Origin: Streptomyces hundungensis
GTDB lineage: Bacteria; Actinomycetota; Actinomycetes; Streptomycetales; Streptomycetaceae
Assembly (NCBI RefSeq): GCF_003627815.1
Contig: NZ_CP032698.1
Location: forward strand, 1,116,001-1,180,000
Direction of reading: 5' to 3'
Length of the DNA stretch: 64,000 bases
Shown here: positions 7,595 to 33,667 of the stretch, piece after piece
How positions within the stretch are numbered: the stretch's first letter is position 1
Layout: the number at the start of each line of letters is the position of its first letter
Made by a program: the position numbers and the translations under genes
Notes under the pieces: generated by a model
Seen by the model: the letters and a program-made list of their open reading frames with translations, nothing else
The model's database searches: none
Told to the model about the DNA's origin: nothing

Positions 7595-7960
7595 TCAGGT
7601 GGCTATCGTGGTGACGGCCTCGACCCCGTATGTACGGGCATAGCCGTTCTCGGTCCCGACGAGGAGGTCCACCACCTCGAAGTAGCGGTCCCAGAACGGG
7701 GTTTCGCGCAGCGCGTCGATCAGGAGCCGGTAGGCGTGGTGGCTCTCCGCCTCCCACACCCAGACGTCGGTGACCCGCGCGGAGTAGAACTCCGTGTCGT
7801 AGAAGCGTGATCGGACACCGGTGGTCCTGGCTTTGATCACGGGCAGGACCTGGGTGGTGAAGGCATCCACCCGCTCCTGGACGGTGAGAGCGAGCCACTC
7901 GGGCGTGGTCTTGACCAGCATGAATGCTGTGACGGGCGGTTCGGTTTCCTCGATGGACAT
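7595..7960 (-). CDS. Darcynin-like small protein (dimeric ferredoxin-like fold expected)
   Basis: 121 aa beginning [16 protein letters not shown]. The pattern of a short strand, the helix [16 protein letters not shown], strands with [19 protein letters not shown], and a final [14 protein letters not shown] segment resembles the darcynin family (from memory), near antibiotic-biosynthesis-monooxygenase-type proteins. The ATG at 7960 shares one base with the stop of the upstream NmrA-like gene (TGATG), so the two are translationally coupled. Enzymatic function is unknown. Confidence 0.7.
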
Positions 7961-27610: not shown

Positions 27611-27651
27611 GCCGCCCCAACCCCCTTGTGCAGCAAGGGAATTGGGGCGGC
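27611..27651. terminator. Bidirectional terminator hairpin between convergent genes
   Basis: Outer arms GCCGCCCCAA (27611-27620) and TTGGGGCGGC (27642-27651) pair perfectly. Inside them CCCTTG and CAAGGG pair around a short loop. It fills most of the 63 bases between the BrkB-like gene (plus) and the DUF5825-like gene (minus). It seems to mark the end of the RiPP-like operon. Confidence 0.75.
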
Positions 27652-27656
27652 CGCAC

Positions 27657-28334
27657 TCAGATCGCCATGGCCTCCTGGATCCAGCGGTTCACCCGGTACG
27701 GCAGCCACCAGGCGAGCTCGCCGACCTCCAGGACCAGGCGTTCCCCCGTGAAGTCGGCCAGCACGGAGGCGGGTACCGAGGCCGCCGGGGCTCCGTAGGC
27801 GAGGGCCTCGATGGTTTGGCGGTACTCCGGCTCGTCGGCGGTGAAGCGGCGCAGGTCACCCCAGCGGCGGTCACGGATCTGGACGAAGCCCGGGCCCTGC
27901 CGCCACAGGCACTTGCAGAGGTAGTGGCCCTCGCGCCAGCGGCGCAGAGCGCCGGTCGCGTCGGCGGGGCCCTCCAGGCGTTGCGGCGGCTGGAGGTGGC
28001 TGAGGGTGCGCCAGGCGTCGTCGGCGGCCGTCGGGGCGAGGCGCAGTCTCCACTCGACGAGGACGGCCCGCGCGGTCAGGTCCCGCACCAGGCTCAGACC
28101 GCGTACGGCGCGCTCGGCCGCGCCGGGGGCGTCGAGTTCACCGAGGTCGATGGGTTCGGGCAGCCGTACCCGGCGGGCGCCGCTCTCCCACAGCCGGTCG
28201 CTCTCCTCGCCCATGGGGCCGGTCAGTTCCCGCTCTCCGAGGTACATCCCGGGCAGCGCGCACGCCTCGGGGTCGTAGTCGCGCCAGGCGGCGACCGTGA
28301 GGGACTCGGTCGTGGTGGTGAGGGTGGTGCTCAT
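27657..28334 (-). CDS. DUF5825-like protein, partner of the radical SAM maturase
   Basis: 225 aa. I recognise it as resembling the DUF5825 family, seen beside RiPP radical SAM proteins; this is from memory. Visible features are an Asp/Glu-rich N-terminus (AWRDYDPEACALPGMYLGE), a basic centre (DDAWRTLSHLQPPQRLEGP), CKCLWRQGPGFVQIRD with two nearby Cys, and a C-terminal EVGELAWWLPYRVNRW. No cofactor motif is evident. It starts 37 bases after the radical SAM stop, with AGGAGG upstream, so it is co-transcribed. It may help substrate recognition or modification. It is the last gene of the operon. Confidence 0.72.
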   Translation of the reverse strand: MSTTLTTTTESLTVAAWRDYDPEACALPGMYLGERELTGPMGEESDRLWESGARRVRLPEPIDLGELDAPGAAERAVRGLSLVRDLTARAVLVEWRLRLAPTAADDAWRTLSHLQPPQRLEGPADATGALRRWREGHYLCKCLWRQGPGFVQIRDRRWGDLRRFTADEPEYRQTIEALAYGAPAASVPASVLADFTGERLVLEVGELAWWLPYRVNRWIQEAMAI

Positions 28335-28371
28335 CGGTCCAGTCCTCCTGCTCCTGTGTCGGACACGCGGC

Positions 28372-30306
28372 TCAGACGCTCAACGGCTCCGGCCGGGCGG
28401 GCTGTTCGGCGTCGAGCGCGGCCTGCGCGTGACGCATGAAGTCCAGGCGCAGCAGGTCCTCGTTGACGGCCGAGGGCGCGATGTGGACGTACTGGCCGCC
28501 GTCGGTGAAGACCAGGCCGAGCGCGAGCCAGGAGTCGAGGAGGCGCTGGACCGCGCTCTCCTCGCGCTCGGCGCCCTGGGCGCGGGCGGCCGCCTTGCGG
28601 GTGAGCGCGGTGGCCGTGTGGGGCTGGTCGAGGAGTCGGAAGACGGCCAGTTCGAACGGGTCGGTCAGTTCCATCGCGCGCCAGTCGAAGGCGCGCCGCC
28701 TGCTCACCAGGACGATGCGGTCGCCGAGGTCGGTGTGGGTGAGCCGGGCGTCGGCGTGGTGTTTCTTCCAGGCGTCGAGGGCGTCGTTGAGGGCGGTGAC
28801 GGTGGGCTCGGTGATGCCGCGCTGGGGCGCCTCGAAGACGTAGGCGAGATCGTAGAGCTCCGACTCGGGCAGGTCGTAGGTGAAGCGGTAGTGCTCCTCG
28901 GGGCGCAGCCCGTCGAAGCCGAGCTCGGGCCGGTTGAAGTACGGGCTGAACCGCTCGATCGCGATCCGCGCGGACAGGTCGACCGGCGGGTTGAGGTGTT
29001 CGAGTGCGGGGATCTGCGCGATGACGGGGTCGTAGTCCTCGGCGGTCTCGCCGGGGAAGCCGTGGAGGTAGTTCCAGGCGACGGAGAGGCCGGTCTCGGC
29101 GCCGTCGCGGAGCATGCGGACGTTCTGGCAGCCGCTGACGCCCTTGTCCATCAGGTCCAGGACCCGGTTGTTGAGGCTCTCGATGCCCGGCTGCACGTAG
29201 ATCAGTCCGGCCTCGGCGAGCGTCCGCAGTTGGCTGCGACGCATGTTGGCCTTGATCTCGATGTGCATCCGCAGGTCGTAGCCGCTCTCCATGATGCGGG
29301 GCAGCACGGTGGTGAGGTAGCCCATGTCGAGGATGTTGTCGACGAGATACATGTCGAGGACCCTGTGGCGGCGGGCGAGTTCCATGATCTCTTCGAAGAA
29401 GGTGTCCGGGCTCTTGGAGCGGTACTGCATGAACGAGCCGTTGAGGCCGCAGAACGTGCAGTGGTGCTTCTCCCCCCACCAGCAGCCGCGCGCGCCCTCC
29501 ACCACCAGCTTGGGCTCGACCCAGTTGCGGGCCACGGAGGAGGCGAGGCGCTCGAAGTAGCCGCTGTAGTCGGGGGCGAGGATCGTGGCCGGCGGCAGGG
29601 GGCTCGTGGCCATCGGGTTGACGATGCTCGCGCCGTCGGCGTCCCGGTGGCACAGGCCCGGCACCTTGTCCAGGACGTCGCGCCCGGCCCCTTCGGCGAG
29701 GGCGGTCACCAGCTGGGGGAAGGCGGACTCGCCCTCGCCCCGGATGACGTGGTCGACGAAGGGGAAGTTGCGGTGGACGGCCTCGCCCTGCTCGCCGTCG
29801 CAGTTGGCGCCGCCCATGACGGTCACGATGTGCGGGGCGAGCCGTTTGACCTGCTGGGCGGCGGCGAGGGCGGCGGTGTTCTGCTGGAAGGTGGAGGTGA
29901 AGCCGACGACGTCGGGCGCGTACTCCACGATCCTCTGGGCGATCATCGCCACGAACTCCGGTACCTGGCGGTGCAGTTCCTGCGACATGCGAAGGCGTGA
30001 CTTGCGGAGTTTGCCCTTCATCGCAGTCGCGAACTCCTCGTCGCGCCAGGCGGGGTCGTCGTAGAGGGCGGAGGAGAACACCCAGTCGCCGCAGCCCATG
30101 AAATAGGAGGAGAGCGCGTAGTACTCGTAGTCGTCGGCGGTGAATTCGGTGCGCTCGGTGATCCAGTCGGTGAATTCGAGATTGGCGTGCAGTACTTCGG
30201 CGGTGGCGCCGGGCACGCGTTCGTCCACGCTGCGCTTGAGGATTCCCAGGGCCAGCGAGGGAAGGTCTATGGGCGACCAGGGCATATTGACCAGCAGGAC
30301 ACGCAT
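28372..30306 (-). CDS. Cobalamin-dependent-type radical SAM RiPP maturase (putative C-methyltransferase)
   Basis: 644 aa. The N-terminal ~200 residues resemble a B12-binding domain (VGFTSTFQQNTAALAAAQQV, then MGGANCDGEQGEAV and HVIRGEGESAFPQL). The radical SAM core follows from about 265. The iron-sulfur motif is Cys275-Cys283-Cys286, spacing CX7CX2C rather than CX3CX2C. The later IEIKANMRRSQL and LIYVQPGIESL strands fit the TIM barrel. The family resembles the RiPP maturation radical SAM C-methyltransferase group (TIGR03975-type, from memory), which would methylate unactivated carbons of the precursor peptide. GAGGAG lies 5 bases before the ATG. It follows the precursor gene after 109 bases containing a hairpin. 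Confidence 0.87.
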   Translation of the reverse strand: MRVLLVNMPWSPIDLPSLALGILKRSVDERVPGATAEVLHANLEFTDWITERTEFTADDYEYYALSSYFMGCGDWVFSSALYDDPAWRDEEFATAMKGKLRKSRLRMSQELHRQVPEFVAMIAQRIVEYAPDVVGFTSTFQQNTAALAAAQQVKRLAPHIVTVMGGANCDGEQGEAVHRNFPFVDHVIRGEGESAFPQLVTALAEGAGRDVLDKVPGLCHRDADGASIVNPMATSPLPPATILAPDYSGYFERLASSVARNWVEPKLVVEGARGCWWGEKHHCTFCGLNGSFMQYRSKSPDTFFEEIMELARRHRVLDMYLVDNILDMGYLTTVLPRIMESGYDLRMHIEIKANMRRSQLRTLAEAGLIYVQPGIESLNNRVLDLMDKGVSGCQNVRMLRDGAETGLSVAWNYLHGFPGETAEDYDPVIAQIPALEHLNPPVDLSARIAIERFSPYFNRPELGFDGLRPEEHYRFTYDLPESELYDLAYVFEAPQRGITEPTVTALNDALDAWKKHHADARLTHTDLGDRIVLVSRRRAFDWRAMELTDPFELAVFRLLDQPHTATALTRKAAARAQGAEREESAVQRLLDSWLALGLVFTDGGQYVHIAPSAVNEDLLRLDFMRHAQAALDAEQPARPEPLSV

Positions 30307-30369
30307 GTCGGCTCCTCGGGATGTGCGGAGACGTAGGGAGTGGGGCCCGGGGGGCCGGAGTTGGGGGGT

Positions 30370-30413
30370 CTTGCCGGCCGGCCCGGCGGCGAACCGCCGG
30401 GCCGGCCGGCAAG
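30370..30413 (-). other. Perfect 20-bp hairpin just after the precursor gene stop
   Basis: Arms at 30370-30389 and 30394-30413 are perfectly complementary over 20 bp, with a 4-base loop (TTCG on the minus strand). It begins 2 bases after the precursor stop codon and ends 64 bases before the radical SAM start. No U tract follows. It may partly terminate or stabilise the upstream mRNA, giving more precursor than enzyme. Confidence 0.88.
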
Positions 30414-30415
30414 GA

Positions 30416-30535
30416 TCAGTCCTCTTCGCCGTCCTCGGCGTTACGGAACGGGACCTTGATGGTCACGCCGACGCTCGGCTTGCGGTTTTCCTCGTCACCC
30501 GCGAGCGGGTCATTGTGGATGATGTCCTTCTGCAT
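30416..30535 (-). CDS. Putative RiPP precursor peptide, 39 aa
   Basis: A short frame of 39 codons, MQKDIIHNDP at the start and RNAEDGEED at the end, read in the operon direction. GAGAGGAG stands 8 bases before the ATG, among the strongest ribosome sites in the window. It lies directly upstream of the maturase. The N-terminal half is acidic/polar (leader-like). Residues 21-29 (SVGVTIKVP) are small and beta-branched, flanked by Pro20 and Pro29. The tail (30-39) is acidic. There is no Cys. Its first 26 bases overlap the end of the peptidase gene. No homologue could be searched, so the role rests on position, ribosome site and composition. Confidence 0.78.
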   Translation of the reverse strand: MQKDIIHNDPLAGDEENRKPSVGVTIKVPFRNAEDGEED

Positions 30536-32387
30536 GGCCGGAACTCCTCTCTGTGTGGGTGGTGCCTGTTCCGGCGGGCGCCGATGAGCGCACCCGTCCG
30601 GTCTCCCCGCCCCGGTCGGAGCGGGTTGTCCTGGGGGTGGTGGTGCCGGGCCGCCCGCGCCGCAGTTCGCGGTCGAGGAAGACCACCGCCCGGCGCAGCA
30701 CGGCCACGTGGTCGTCGGCCTCGTAGCCGTCGTGGCCGGTGTCCAGCCACATCGACTCGTGGCGTACGCCCGCGTGCCGAAGGGCTTCGAGGTAGTCGCG
30801 CACCTGGCCGGGCGGGCACTTGGCGTCCCGGGTCGCGGCGGCGACGAGCAAGGGGGCCTCGACGGCGGCCGCGTAACGCAGGGGCGAACTCCGCGCGTAC
30901 CGCTCGGGCACCTCCTCGGGGGTGCCGCCGAACAGCCGCTCGTCCAGGGCGCGCAGGGCCGCGGTGGTGGTGCGGTGGGCGGCCGCGCAGTCCGCGACGG
31001 GCTTGACGGCGACGCCCGCCTGCCACACGCCGGGGTGGACGCCGAGGGCGAGCAGGACCAGATAGCCGCCCCAGGAGGTGCCCCACAGTCCGGTCGCGTC
31101 CGCGCGGACCACCCCGCGGTCGACGAGGTCGGCGCGGACCGCGACGAGGTCGGCGACCTGGGTGAGCCCGACGCCCTCGCCGAACGCCCGCCGCCAGCGC
31201 GGCCCGTACCCGGTGGAGCCGCGGTAGTTGACGCGGACGACGGCGAAGCCGGAGGCGACCAGCGAGTGGACCACCCCGTCGTAGGCGTCCCGGTCGTGGT
31301 CGGCGGGGCCGCCGTGCACCAGGAACACCGCGGGCACCGCGCCCCGCCGCCCTTCGGGCAGGCTGATCAGCGAGTGCACCGGGCCGTCGGGTCCGGGGGT
31401 CCACAGGTCCCGGTGCTCGCCGGGCACCCGCTCGGGCAGCTCGTGGGTGGGAGGCAGCTCGATGCCGGCGGTGGAGACCATGCGGGGCGGTGTCGCCGTG
31501 TCCGTCCACAGGAAGTGCACATCGGATCCGGTGCGCGGCGCCGCGTCGAGAAGGGTTCCGCGCGGTGTCGGTACGGGCTCGACGGTGCCCTCCGTCAGGT
31601 GCACGCGGTGCAGGCCGCTGCGCCCGTGCCGGTCCTGGCGCACCAGGAGCGAGCGGCCGTCGGGGTGCCAGCGGGCGGTGATCTCGGTGTCGAAGCCGCA
31701 CCAGGAGTGCGTGACCACTCCCCTGTCGGGGCTCCAACTGGCCAGCAGATATTGGTCGTTGGTCTCGCGCACGAGGAGGAGTTCGACGCGGTCGGCGACG
31801 GGGGCGAACCCCAGCGACCAGAGCCGCCCTTCGGGGCCGTCCCCGGGTAGCACCGCGCATACGGCGCCGTCGTCGGCGAGGACGGTCACGGCCCACGCCG
31901 ATCCCGCGGCGCCGCTGAGCGCGAGGAGGCGGCCGTCGGGGGTGGTCCCGGACAGGGTGGCGTGCCCGTCGACGCGCGTCACTTCGCGGGCGGCGCCACC
32001 GCGCGGACCCACGTGGACGGTGGTCGACCGGGTGTCGCCGAGCCCCATCGCGACGCGGCCGCCGGCACCGACGGCGAGGCCACGCGGCTCGCCCTCGGCC
32101 ACACCGAGCAGGCCCGGTGCGTCCGGTCCGCCGTCGAAGGGCTGGTACCGCCAGCGCCCGACGCCGTTGGCGTCCTCGTCGAACCACCACACCCGTGCGT
32201 CCCGGTCGATCGCGCCGTGCAGGGTGCCGTGCGGGCGGTCGGTGACCTGACGGGCCCGGCGCGTGCTGGCGTCCCAGGTGAACACTTCGCAGCGGCCGTC
32301 GGCGTCGGCGGTGAACACCATCTTGGTGGGTTCACCGGCGCACACCTCGGGCAGCGCCGCGCGGTAGACCTGGTAGCTCCTGGTCAT
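30510..32387 (-). CDS. S9 (prolyl oligopeptidase-family) serine peptidase
   Basis: 625 aa. An N-terminal beta-propeller-like region of WD-type strands (WDASTRRARQVTD, RWHPDGRSLLVRQDR) covers about 1-360, then an alpha/beta-hydrolase domain. The triad is Ser in GTSWGGY, Asp in ATRDAKCP and His in DTGHDGY. The oxyanion segment is FLVHGGP. No signal peptide, so it acts in the cytoplasm. S9 enzymes cleave short peptides, often after Pro, which suits a precursor with prolines at 10, 20 and 29. Its start overlaps the exporter stop (ATGA), and its last codons overlap the precursor gene. The C-terminal ~45 residues are Thr/Arg/Gly rich and look disordered. Confidence 0.88.
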   Translation of the reverse strand: MTRSYQVYRAALPEVCAGEPTKMVFTADADGRCEVFTWDASTRRARQVTDRPHGTLHGAIDRDARVWWFDEDANGVGRWRYQPFDGGPDAPGLLGVAEGEPRGLAVGAGGRVAMGLGDTRSTTVHVGPRGGAAREVTRVDGHATLSGTTPDGRLLALSGAAGSAWAVTVLADDGAVCAVLPGDGPEGRLWSLGFAPVADRVELLLVRETNDQYLLASWSPDRGVVTHSWCGFDTEITARWHPDGRSLLVRQDRHGRSGLHRVHLTEGTVEPVPTPRGTLLDAAPRTGSDVHFLWTDTATPPRMVSTAGIELPPTHELPERVPGEHRDLWTPGPDGPVHSLISLPEGRRGAVPAVFLVHGGPADHDRDAYDGVVHSLVASGFAVVRVNYRGSTGYGPRWRRAFGEGVGLTQVADLVAVRADLVDRGVVRADATGLWGTSWGGYLVLLALGVHPGVWQAGVAVKPVADCAAAHRTTTAALRALDERLFGGTPEEVPERYARSSPLRYAAAVEAPLLVAAATRDAKCPPGQVRDYLEALRHAGVRHESMWLDTGHDGYEADDHVAVLRRAVVFLDRELRRGRPGTTTPRTTRSDRGGETGRVRSSAPAGTGTTHTERSSGHAEGHHPQ

Positions 32388-33667
32388 GCGGTCGCCCCCG
32401 TCAGCCGGCCGCGTACGACGGTGGTCCGCCAGGCCAGCGCCACGAGCAGGGCGGCGCAGACCGCGGCGGGCGCGGCCGTCCCGGCGCGGGTCACGAACAC
32501 CCCGGCCAGGACCGGCGCCAGCGCCGCCGAACCGCCCACCGCGCTCGCCAGCACCGCGCCCGTGCGGGCCTGGAGGGCGGGCGGGGTCTCCTGGAGGGCG
32601 CGGGACTGGAGCACGACGGCGACCAGCGGCATCAGCAGGCAGAACACCCCGAACAGCGCGCCGTACGTCCAAGGGCCCTCGGCGGTGGCGAGCCCGGCGG
32701 CGAGCGGAACGAGCAGCCAGGACACCGTCACCAGCAGCCGCGCCGCGCCGATCCGGCCCACGACACGCGGCGCGGCCAGCGACCCGATGAGACCCGCGGC
32801 GCCGGAGAGCGCGAGCACCAGGCCCATCGGTGCGCCGCCGTGGCCGCCCTTCTGGAGGGTGAACACCGCGCCGTAATAGAGCGCGACGATCACCCCGTTG
32901 ACGGTGGCGGTCCAGGTCAGGGCGAGCCGGAGGAAGGGCGAGGTGCGGACCAGGGCGAGCCCGGCCCCCAACTCGTCCCACATCCGGCGCGCGGGGCCGG
33001 TCCGGGGCGCGGGATCCGCATCGGGGGCGGCGCCGTCCTTCGGGGCCGTGCCGTGCCGCGGCCTCAGGTCGGAGCTCAACGCCCGTACGCATCCGGCGGC
33101 TACGGCGTACGACACCGCGTCCGCGAGGAAGGGCAGGGCGCGGGACGCCTGGTAGAGCGCGCCGCCGAGGGCCGGGCCCAGGATCAGTGCGCCCTGGTCC
33201 CCGGCCGAAAGCCCGGCCACCACGCGGGGGCAGTCGGCGGGCGGGGCGATCATCGCCACGGTGCCGGCGGCGGCGGCCTCGTACACCGCGGTGGAGAACC
33301 GTTCCACCAGGACCGTCCCGAGCAGCAGCGCGAGCGGCGGGTTCCCCCGGGTCACGGCGGCCGCAAGGCCGGCCATGGCGAGTGCCGAGACGGTCGCGGA
33401 CCAGAACATCACGGGTTTGCGCGCGCCCCGGTCGGCGGGGACGGCCGCGATCGGGGCGAGCAGCAGCCCGGCCGCCGTGGACACCCCCGCGATCAGGCCG
33501 ACGGTCGCCGCCGAGTGGCCGAGCCCGAGGAGCAGCAGGGGCAGGACGACGCCGGACGCCTGGGAGCCGAGGGCGTCACCGGCGCTCGCGCACCAGAACA
33601 GCCGGACGTCCCGGGAGATCGGCCGTCGGGCCGCCCGTCGGTCGGCGGCCGTGGTGCCGGGGGCCAT
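32384..33667 (-). CDS. MFS exporter, first gene of the RiPP-like operon
   Basis: 427 aa with about 12 helices, of the enterobactin-exporter/MFS_3 type (DVRLFWCASAGDALGSQASGVVLPLLLLGLG at the start, PADRGARKPVMFWSA as motif A). A charged loop of ~35 residues divides the halves (LRPRHGTAPKDGAAPDADP). It overlaps the peptidase start by 4 bases, so the two are coupled. The likely job is export of, or immunity to, the mature peptide. A perfect palindrome lies 22 bases before its ATG. Confidence 0.87.
   Translation of the reverse strand: MAPGTTAADRRAARRPISRDVRLFWCASAGDALGSQASGVVLPLLLLGLGHSAATVGLIAGVSTAAGLLLAPIAAVPADRGARKPVMFWSATVSALAMAGLAAAVTRGNPPLALLLGTVLVERFSTAVYEAAAAGTVAMIAPPADCPRVVAGLSAGDQGALILGPALGGALYQASRALPFLADAVSYAVAAGCVRALSSDLRPRHGTAPKDGAAPDADPAPRTGPARRMWDELGAGLALVRTSPFLRLALTWTATVNGVIVALYYGAVFTLQKGGHGGAPMGLVLALSGAAGLIGSLAAPRVVGRIGAARLLVTVSWLLVPLAAGLATAEGPWTYGALFGVFCLLMPLVAVVLQSRALQETPPALQARTGAVLASAVGGSAALAPVLAGVFVTRAGTAAPAAVCAALLVALAWRTTVVRGRLTGATA

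Follow-up and report, generated by a model that had tools for sequence, protein, structure and literature searches.

What does a compact five-gene operon of Streptomyces hundungensis make, and why is its B12-dependent radical S-adenosylmethionine enzyme (rSAM) accompanied by a protein of the DUF5825 family? The operon lies in the window, a 64,000-nt stretch of contig NZ_CP032698.1, and all coordinates below are positions within it. Its five genes are on the minus strand and encode a major facilitator superfamily (MFS) exporter, an S9 peptidase, a 39-aa peptide, the rSAM, and DUF5825. We assign it, with a probability of about 0.85, to the clavusporin-type (mpc-like) operons for ribosomally synthesized and post-translationally modified peptides (RiPPs), because a B12-rSAM + DUF5825 pair and an MpcP-type peptidase have been published for the clavusporins. 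According to passages citing that work, the pair C-methylates (Zhang et al., Nat Chem Biol 2025, 10.1038/s41589-025-01882-8) and leader removal from clavusporin is the task of the prolyl-oligopeptidase MpcP (PMC12951456). Here too, the rSAM and DUF5825 genes are adjacent, and the operon contains a prolyl-oligopeptidase gene. The first-pass annotation had proposed an undescribed system with no characterised product. That proposal is not supported, as papers from 2025 and 2026 cite characterised clavusporins that a B12-rSAM + DUF5825 pair produces and MpcP cleaves. The clavusporins have been published as peptide surfactants that promote development, and DUF5825 is named in passages of PMC12026744 and PMC12257519, two versions of one work.

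Conservation of the five genes

Scanning a single genome for each species yielded 515 rSAM relatives, of which the best 80 loci were kept (72–98% identity, all Streptomyces; loci are cited by L numbers and genomes by G numbers). The order and strand of all five genes were the same in 72 of these 80 loci. The eight exceptions comprised five contig ends (L010, L016, L040, L043, and L057), one gap of undetermined bases (L031), and two loci without a detectable MFS gene. Taken singly, the MFS gene was detected in 74/80 loci (E ≤ 1e-3) and the peptidase in 78/80. The precursor was present at each of the 77 loci with a readable precursor position and was intact in 76 of them, 75 by one pattern and L010 as MEKD...; in L026 it was readable only partly, up to a run of N, and L016, L031, and L043 could not be judged. 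Assembly gaps between the precursor or peptidase and the rSAM were seen in L026 and L031. Every neighboring open reading frame (ORF) of at least 120 aa between 22000 and 42000, taken outside the five genes and with antisense frames excluded, matched 8 or fewer of the 80 loci at E ≤ 1e-10 over half the ORF length; the loci extended no more than 8 kb in either direction. Conservation is therefore confined to the five-gene unit, and with order and strand kept in 72 of 80 loci the co-occurrence of its genes is not due to chance. This synteny, the peptide at every readable place, and the Cx7Cx2C motif of the rSAM bear out the earlier suggestion of maturation, cleavage, and export functions set around one small peptide. 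An rSAM gene without a small peptide, which the first-pass annotation had held to count against such a system, was found at none of the 77 readable loci of near relatives. Results at greater distance were mixed, with no assigned peptide at 11 of 26 loci.

DUF5825 was found in 59 of 246 Streptomyces genomes (58 above the family cut-off; 64 places), and the precursor profile matched 36 places in 35 of these 246 genomes. By distances read by eye, 35 of the 36 precursor places had a same-strand DUF5825 gene no farther than ~3.1 kb away. The 36th (G524) was on a contig other than that of the genome's DUF5825, in an assembly of 1010 contigs. Where DUF5825 scored at least 220 bits, 36 of 37 places had a profile precursor, and the lone exception (G573) had the divergent precursor MRKAVVHNDPLDLKNQSRANRPIIVIIVSS; weaker DUF5825 places had no profile precursor (0/27). 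Some of the weaker places that were fetched (L163, L165, and L167) encode divergent clavusporin-like peptides, so the strong and weak DUF5825 groups are not cleanly separated. In a class-wide draw of 394 genomes, DUF5825 occurred in 16 (15 above the cut-off), five of them outside the genus. At L103, from another family, the exporter, peptidase, rSAM, and DUF5825 follow in order, with the divergent peptide MRKRVIKNDPISGNRDQSRSVEVSVSVSVGF in the precursor position. The same operon is carried by plasmid pSCL4 of S. clavuligerus, with an 84% identical rSAM and a closely similar precursor, which is missing from the PLSDB gene table.

The precursor, its predicted core, and its proposed maturation

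The 39-aa precursor MQKDIIHNDPLAGDEENRKPSVGVTIKVPFRNAEDGEED (30416..30535, minus strand) had no family match in NCBIfam or Pfam at E ≤ 0.1. Its start codon lies inside the 3′ end of the peptidase gene (30510..32387, minus; 625 aa), whose own start overlaps the stop of the MFS gene (32384..33667, minus; 427 aa) as ATGA. This one-direction layout, reported at first pass, was confirmed in the ORFs. Among the relatives, the peptidase stop was located by script in 51 loci, and in 28 of these the precursor likewise started within the peptidase ORF. The peptidase is an S9 prolyl-oligopeptidase (Pfam Peptidase_S9, E 1.6e-34) with the nucleophile motif GTSWGGY and is predicted to be the leader peptidase; the exporter matched Pfam MFS_1 at E 4.2e-24.

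Across 60 distinct precursors, residues M1, K3, D4, P10, L11, R18, and R31 were invariant. Residues 22, 24, and 26 were Val or Ile in all 60, an alternating restriction for which no earlier report was found in the literature searched. Residue 28 was Val or Ile in 55 and a gap in the other five. The interleaving residues were mostly small or polar (Gly, Ser, or Thr); residue 27 was Thr in 52/60, as against Lys in the window peptide. Pro20 was found in 57/60 and Pro29 in 55/60. The predicted core is residues 21–30, SVGVTIKVP(F) (30446..30475, minus), with Val or Ile at 22, 24, 26, and 28; the sequence SVGVTIKVPF was otherwise seen only in L003–L005, L008, and L009. The V-x-V-x alternation was kept in the core at L103, and alternating Val/Ile extends to an operon from another bacterial family, SVEVSVSVSVGF. 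When 49 precursors of equal length were compared with the window peptide as reference, 451 differences fell at third codon positions vs 244 at first and 170 at second positions. The pairwise ratio of nonsynonymous to synonymous substitution rates (dN/dS) had a median of 0.41 over 1167 pairs and exceeded 1 in 121 of these. One relative, L011, encodes two tandem precursors (at 7599 and 7785), neither with Pro20.

The maturation proposed for this peptide would begin with the leader (residues 1–20, MQKDIIHNDPL...NRKP), which the putative winged-helix C-terminal domains of the rSAM and/or DUF5825, perhaps akin to PqqD-like RiPP recognition elements, may bind. The rSAM would then methylate unactivated carbons in the side chains of Val/Ile 22, 24, 26, and 28, and perhaps of Pro29 or Phe30, with C-beta as the most likely position. 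From the spacing of these sites we infer that modification of every second core residue would produce a single bulky hydrophobic face. The S9 prolyl-oligopeptidase would cleave after Pro20 and possibly also after Pro29, and the MFS protein would export the peptide. An S9-type leader peptidase is also described for FlaP, a prolyl-oligopeptidase from a different RiPP class (class III lanthipeptides), in the passages on it. If it resembles the peptide surfactants already published, the product would be a hydrophobic or amphipathic peptide.

The mature product may be longer than the 9–10 residues that two cuts would leave. If the precursor were cut at Pro20 only, residues 21–39 would form a block amphiphile with a methylated hydrophobic block and an acidic tail, and such a product would have the polar head that a surfactant needs. 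All 60 distinct Streptomyces precursors have the invariant Arg31 followed by a tail rich in Glu and Asp, as read from the alignment with no cut-off applied. However, the L103 precursor stops at ...VSVGF, with the tail absent, and the divergent precursors MEKTVVDNDPQTEGTESATITIPIITGRF and MRKAVVHNDPLDLKNQTRANRPIVVIIVSS also have no acidic tail. We regard the longer product as a serious contender, though the less probable of the two.

The precursor is followed by a 20-bp hairpin (30370..30413, minus; −51.7 kcal/mol, z −8.2), which starts two bases past the precursor stop, ahead of the rSAM gene, and has no run of T. This hairpin, overlooked at first pass, is stronger than the hairpin at the end of the operon (27611..27651, minus; −39.6 kcal/mol, z −5.3), which had been reported and proved to be real. 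A stem of at least 12 pairs was found in the gap between the precursor and the rSAM gene in 62 of 78 loci vs 1 of 390 single-base shuffles, and in 58 of these 62 loci it lay within 20 nt of the precursor stop. Compensatory changes occurred at 11 of 16 hairpin pairs in 20 loci that we chose from the 78; we found no account of this compensated hairpin in the literature searched. The hairpin is likely an attenuator or a 3′ stabilizer that raises the level of precursor mRNA, and it would keep this mRNA in excess over that of the enzymes.

Several points weigh against the picture drawn so far. Its identity with the published clavusporin operon rests on passages in papers that cite that operon. The MFS gene was not detectable in L009 and L055, and in L009 the peptidase match was also partial. 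Val replaces Pro20 in 3/60 distinct precursors, and therefore Pro may be dispensable for cleavage. No fate is assigned to the acidic tail (residues 31–39), which the distant L103 precursor lacks. Finally, no 12-pair stem followed the precursor in 16 of the 78 loci, S. clavuligerus included.

DUF5825 and its kinship with the radical SAM enzyme

The partner protein DUF5825 (27657..28334, minus; 225 aa; Pfam DUF5825, 265 bits vs a cut-off of 25) is encoded directly downstream of the rSAM (28372..30306, minus; 644 aa). Profile comparison with hhalign revealed that DUF5825 is homologous to rSAM residues ~357–613, collinearly (E 3.3e-11). The alignments held 36 DUF5825 and 40 rSAM rows plus the proteins of the window, rows outside the length range having been removed, and the E-values are those of single comparisons. 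The rows of two protein alignments, A2 (39) and A3 (17), were hand-picked from longer lists. No earlier report of this homology was found in the literature searched. DUF5825 lacks the Fe-S motif and the B12 domain of its rSAM partner: in a 37-row alignment, no column was more than half Cys. DUF5825 proteins of the clavusporin type, that of the window included, have a CKC pair within HYLCKC, a motif conserved among them and not in the distant ones; they have neither CX3CX2C nor CX7CX2C.

Since the homology covers only the C-terminal half of the rSAM, DUF5825 is at most a radical SAM derivative, and the collinear match without an Fe-S motif or a B12 domain suggests that it is probably a dead tandem copy. 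We therefore consider DUF5825 to be probably a truncated, catalytically inactive tandem duplicate of that half, kept for substrate recognition or scaffolding. A fuller proposal, to which we lean at somewhat better than even odds, is that this dead duplicate (the last barrel strands and the putative winged helix) became the subunit on which a two-protein C-methylase depends for leader recognition, and that several RiPP types have taken up the module, namely clavusporin-like peptides, the 'KKVVVRE...LEKRP' class, and thiopeptides.

The two proteins might instead have only a small winged-helix domain in common, recruited independently, with DUF5825 not derived from an rSAM. This is unlikely, because each half of DUF5825 on its own matched the rSAM, in collinear order. 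The N-terminal half, which does not contain the putative winged helix, matched rSAM residues 357–443 (E 6.3e-7; score 51.9, against a maximum of 17.0 among 60 permuted controls). The C half matched residues 508–613 (E 5.3e-8; score 56.7, against a maximum of 21.6 among permuted controls). Moreover, DUF5825 directly followed a TIGR03975-type rSAM in all 38 loci fetched by genome coordinates, that is, in the 38 DUF5825 places from both genome surveys that were fetched with their flanks. Two TIGR03975 rSAM genes from another family (L170 and L171, both in G095) had no DUF5825 in the fetched stretch, and therefore the partner is not universal.

The rSAM itself scored 612.4 bits against TIGR03975 (cut-off 281.85) and has a Radical_SAM domain and a Pfam B12-binding domain (2.5e-11). 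Its Cx7Cx2C iron-sulfur motif CWWGEKHHCTFC (residues 275–286; 29449..29484, minus) was identical in 81/81 loci (L003–L083). In the passages of reviews, Cx7Cx2C is given for PoyB/PoyC and for the bottromycin C-beta-methylases. From its family and motif, the rSAM is probably a peptide C-methyltransferase, most likely acting at C-beta. PoyB and PoyC, from polytheonamide biosynthesis, are likewise B12-rSAM enzymes with Cx7Cx2C, described as methylating C-beta of Val and Ile; unlike the present system, they act on a proteusin precursor, and the passages on them make no mention of DUF5825. Bottromycin is a macrocyclic product. Its enzymes BotRMT1-3 are also Cx7Cx2C B12-rSAM peptide C-beta-methylases, described as acting on Val, Phe, and Pro, but they are three separate enzymes, and DUF5825 does not appear in the passages that describe them. 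The biphenomycin-like clusters (YHxYxY precursors) resemble the operon in having a DUF5825 gene alongside a second B12-rSAM, but according to the passages on them they contain an MNIO and have another precursor. That the operon represents a new RiPP class unrelated to the clavusporins, with an rSAM that cross-links or cyclopropanates rather than methylates, is very improbable: B12-rSAM enzymes with other chemistry are described (PbsB forms a C-C cross-link, and one B12-rSAM cross-links ortho-tyrosines in biphenomycin-like peptides), but the cores of the 60 distinct precursors have neither a conserved aromatic pair nor Cys, their Val/Ile repeats resemble the C-beta-methylation substrates described for PoyC, the rSAM lies far above the TIGR03975 cut-off with its Cx7Cx2C, and a homologous rSAM/DUF5825 pair is cited as C-methylating.

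Other precursors beside the rSAM/DUF5825 pair

A peptide scan also covered 26 rSAM/DUF5825 loci that are paralogous or more distantly related. Of these, 10 had another conserved peptide class, 4 a divergent clavusporin-like peptide, and 1 a thiopeptide precursor, and 11 were left without an assigned peptide. Peptides of the other class (MEIKKVVVRE...RRPAILEKRPTR) are short, ~27–40 aa with an uncertain start codon, and are encoded just upstream of the rSAM (L105, L106, L148, L149, L150, L152, L154, L155, L156, and L159). Judged by sequence and position, these 'IKKVVVRE...EKRP' peptides are a second predicted precursor class for the rSAM/DUF5825 pair. The divergent clavusporin-like precursors (L103, L163, L165, L167, and L169) have in common a K-x-V-V/I-x-x-D-P-like leader motif; their cores differ and the acidic tail is absent.

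The window genome contains a second rSAM/DUF5825 pair, with a 54% identical rSAM, in a thiopeptide cluster ~2.1 Mb from the window (L084, G000:C1:3231000-3250000). Besides a precursor of family NF033401 (71.5 bits; cut-off 37.5) with the core SCTTSGCACSSSSSSSS, this cluster encodes a TIGR03891 protein of thiopeptide-type biosynthesis (81.6 bits; cut-off 48.45). The position of the pair beside this precursor suggests a C-methylated thiopeptide.

Clavusporin-type loci are numerous, and this operon is one of them; in the clavusporin study such operons are reportedly widespread in actinomycetes. The wider precursor set, with its divergent cores, its second class, and the thiopeptide, offers ready substrates for testing the C-methylating module. 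If DUF5825 is a truncated copy of the rSAM, this would explain the origin of the dependence on a partner and where the leader may bind. Its ancestry would then guide the finding and use of a portable module that C-methylates unactivated carbons to form tert-butyl-type residues.

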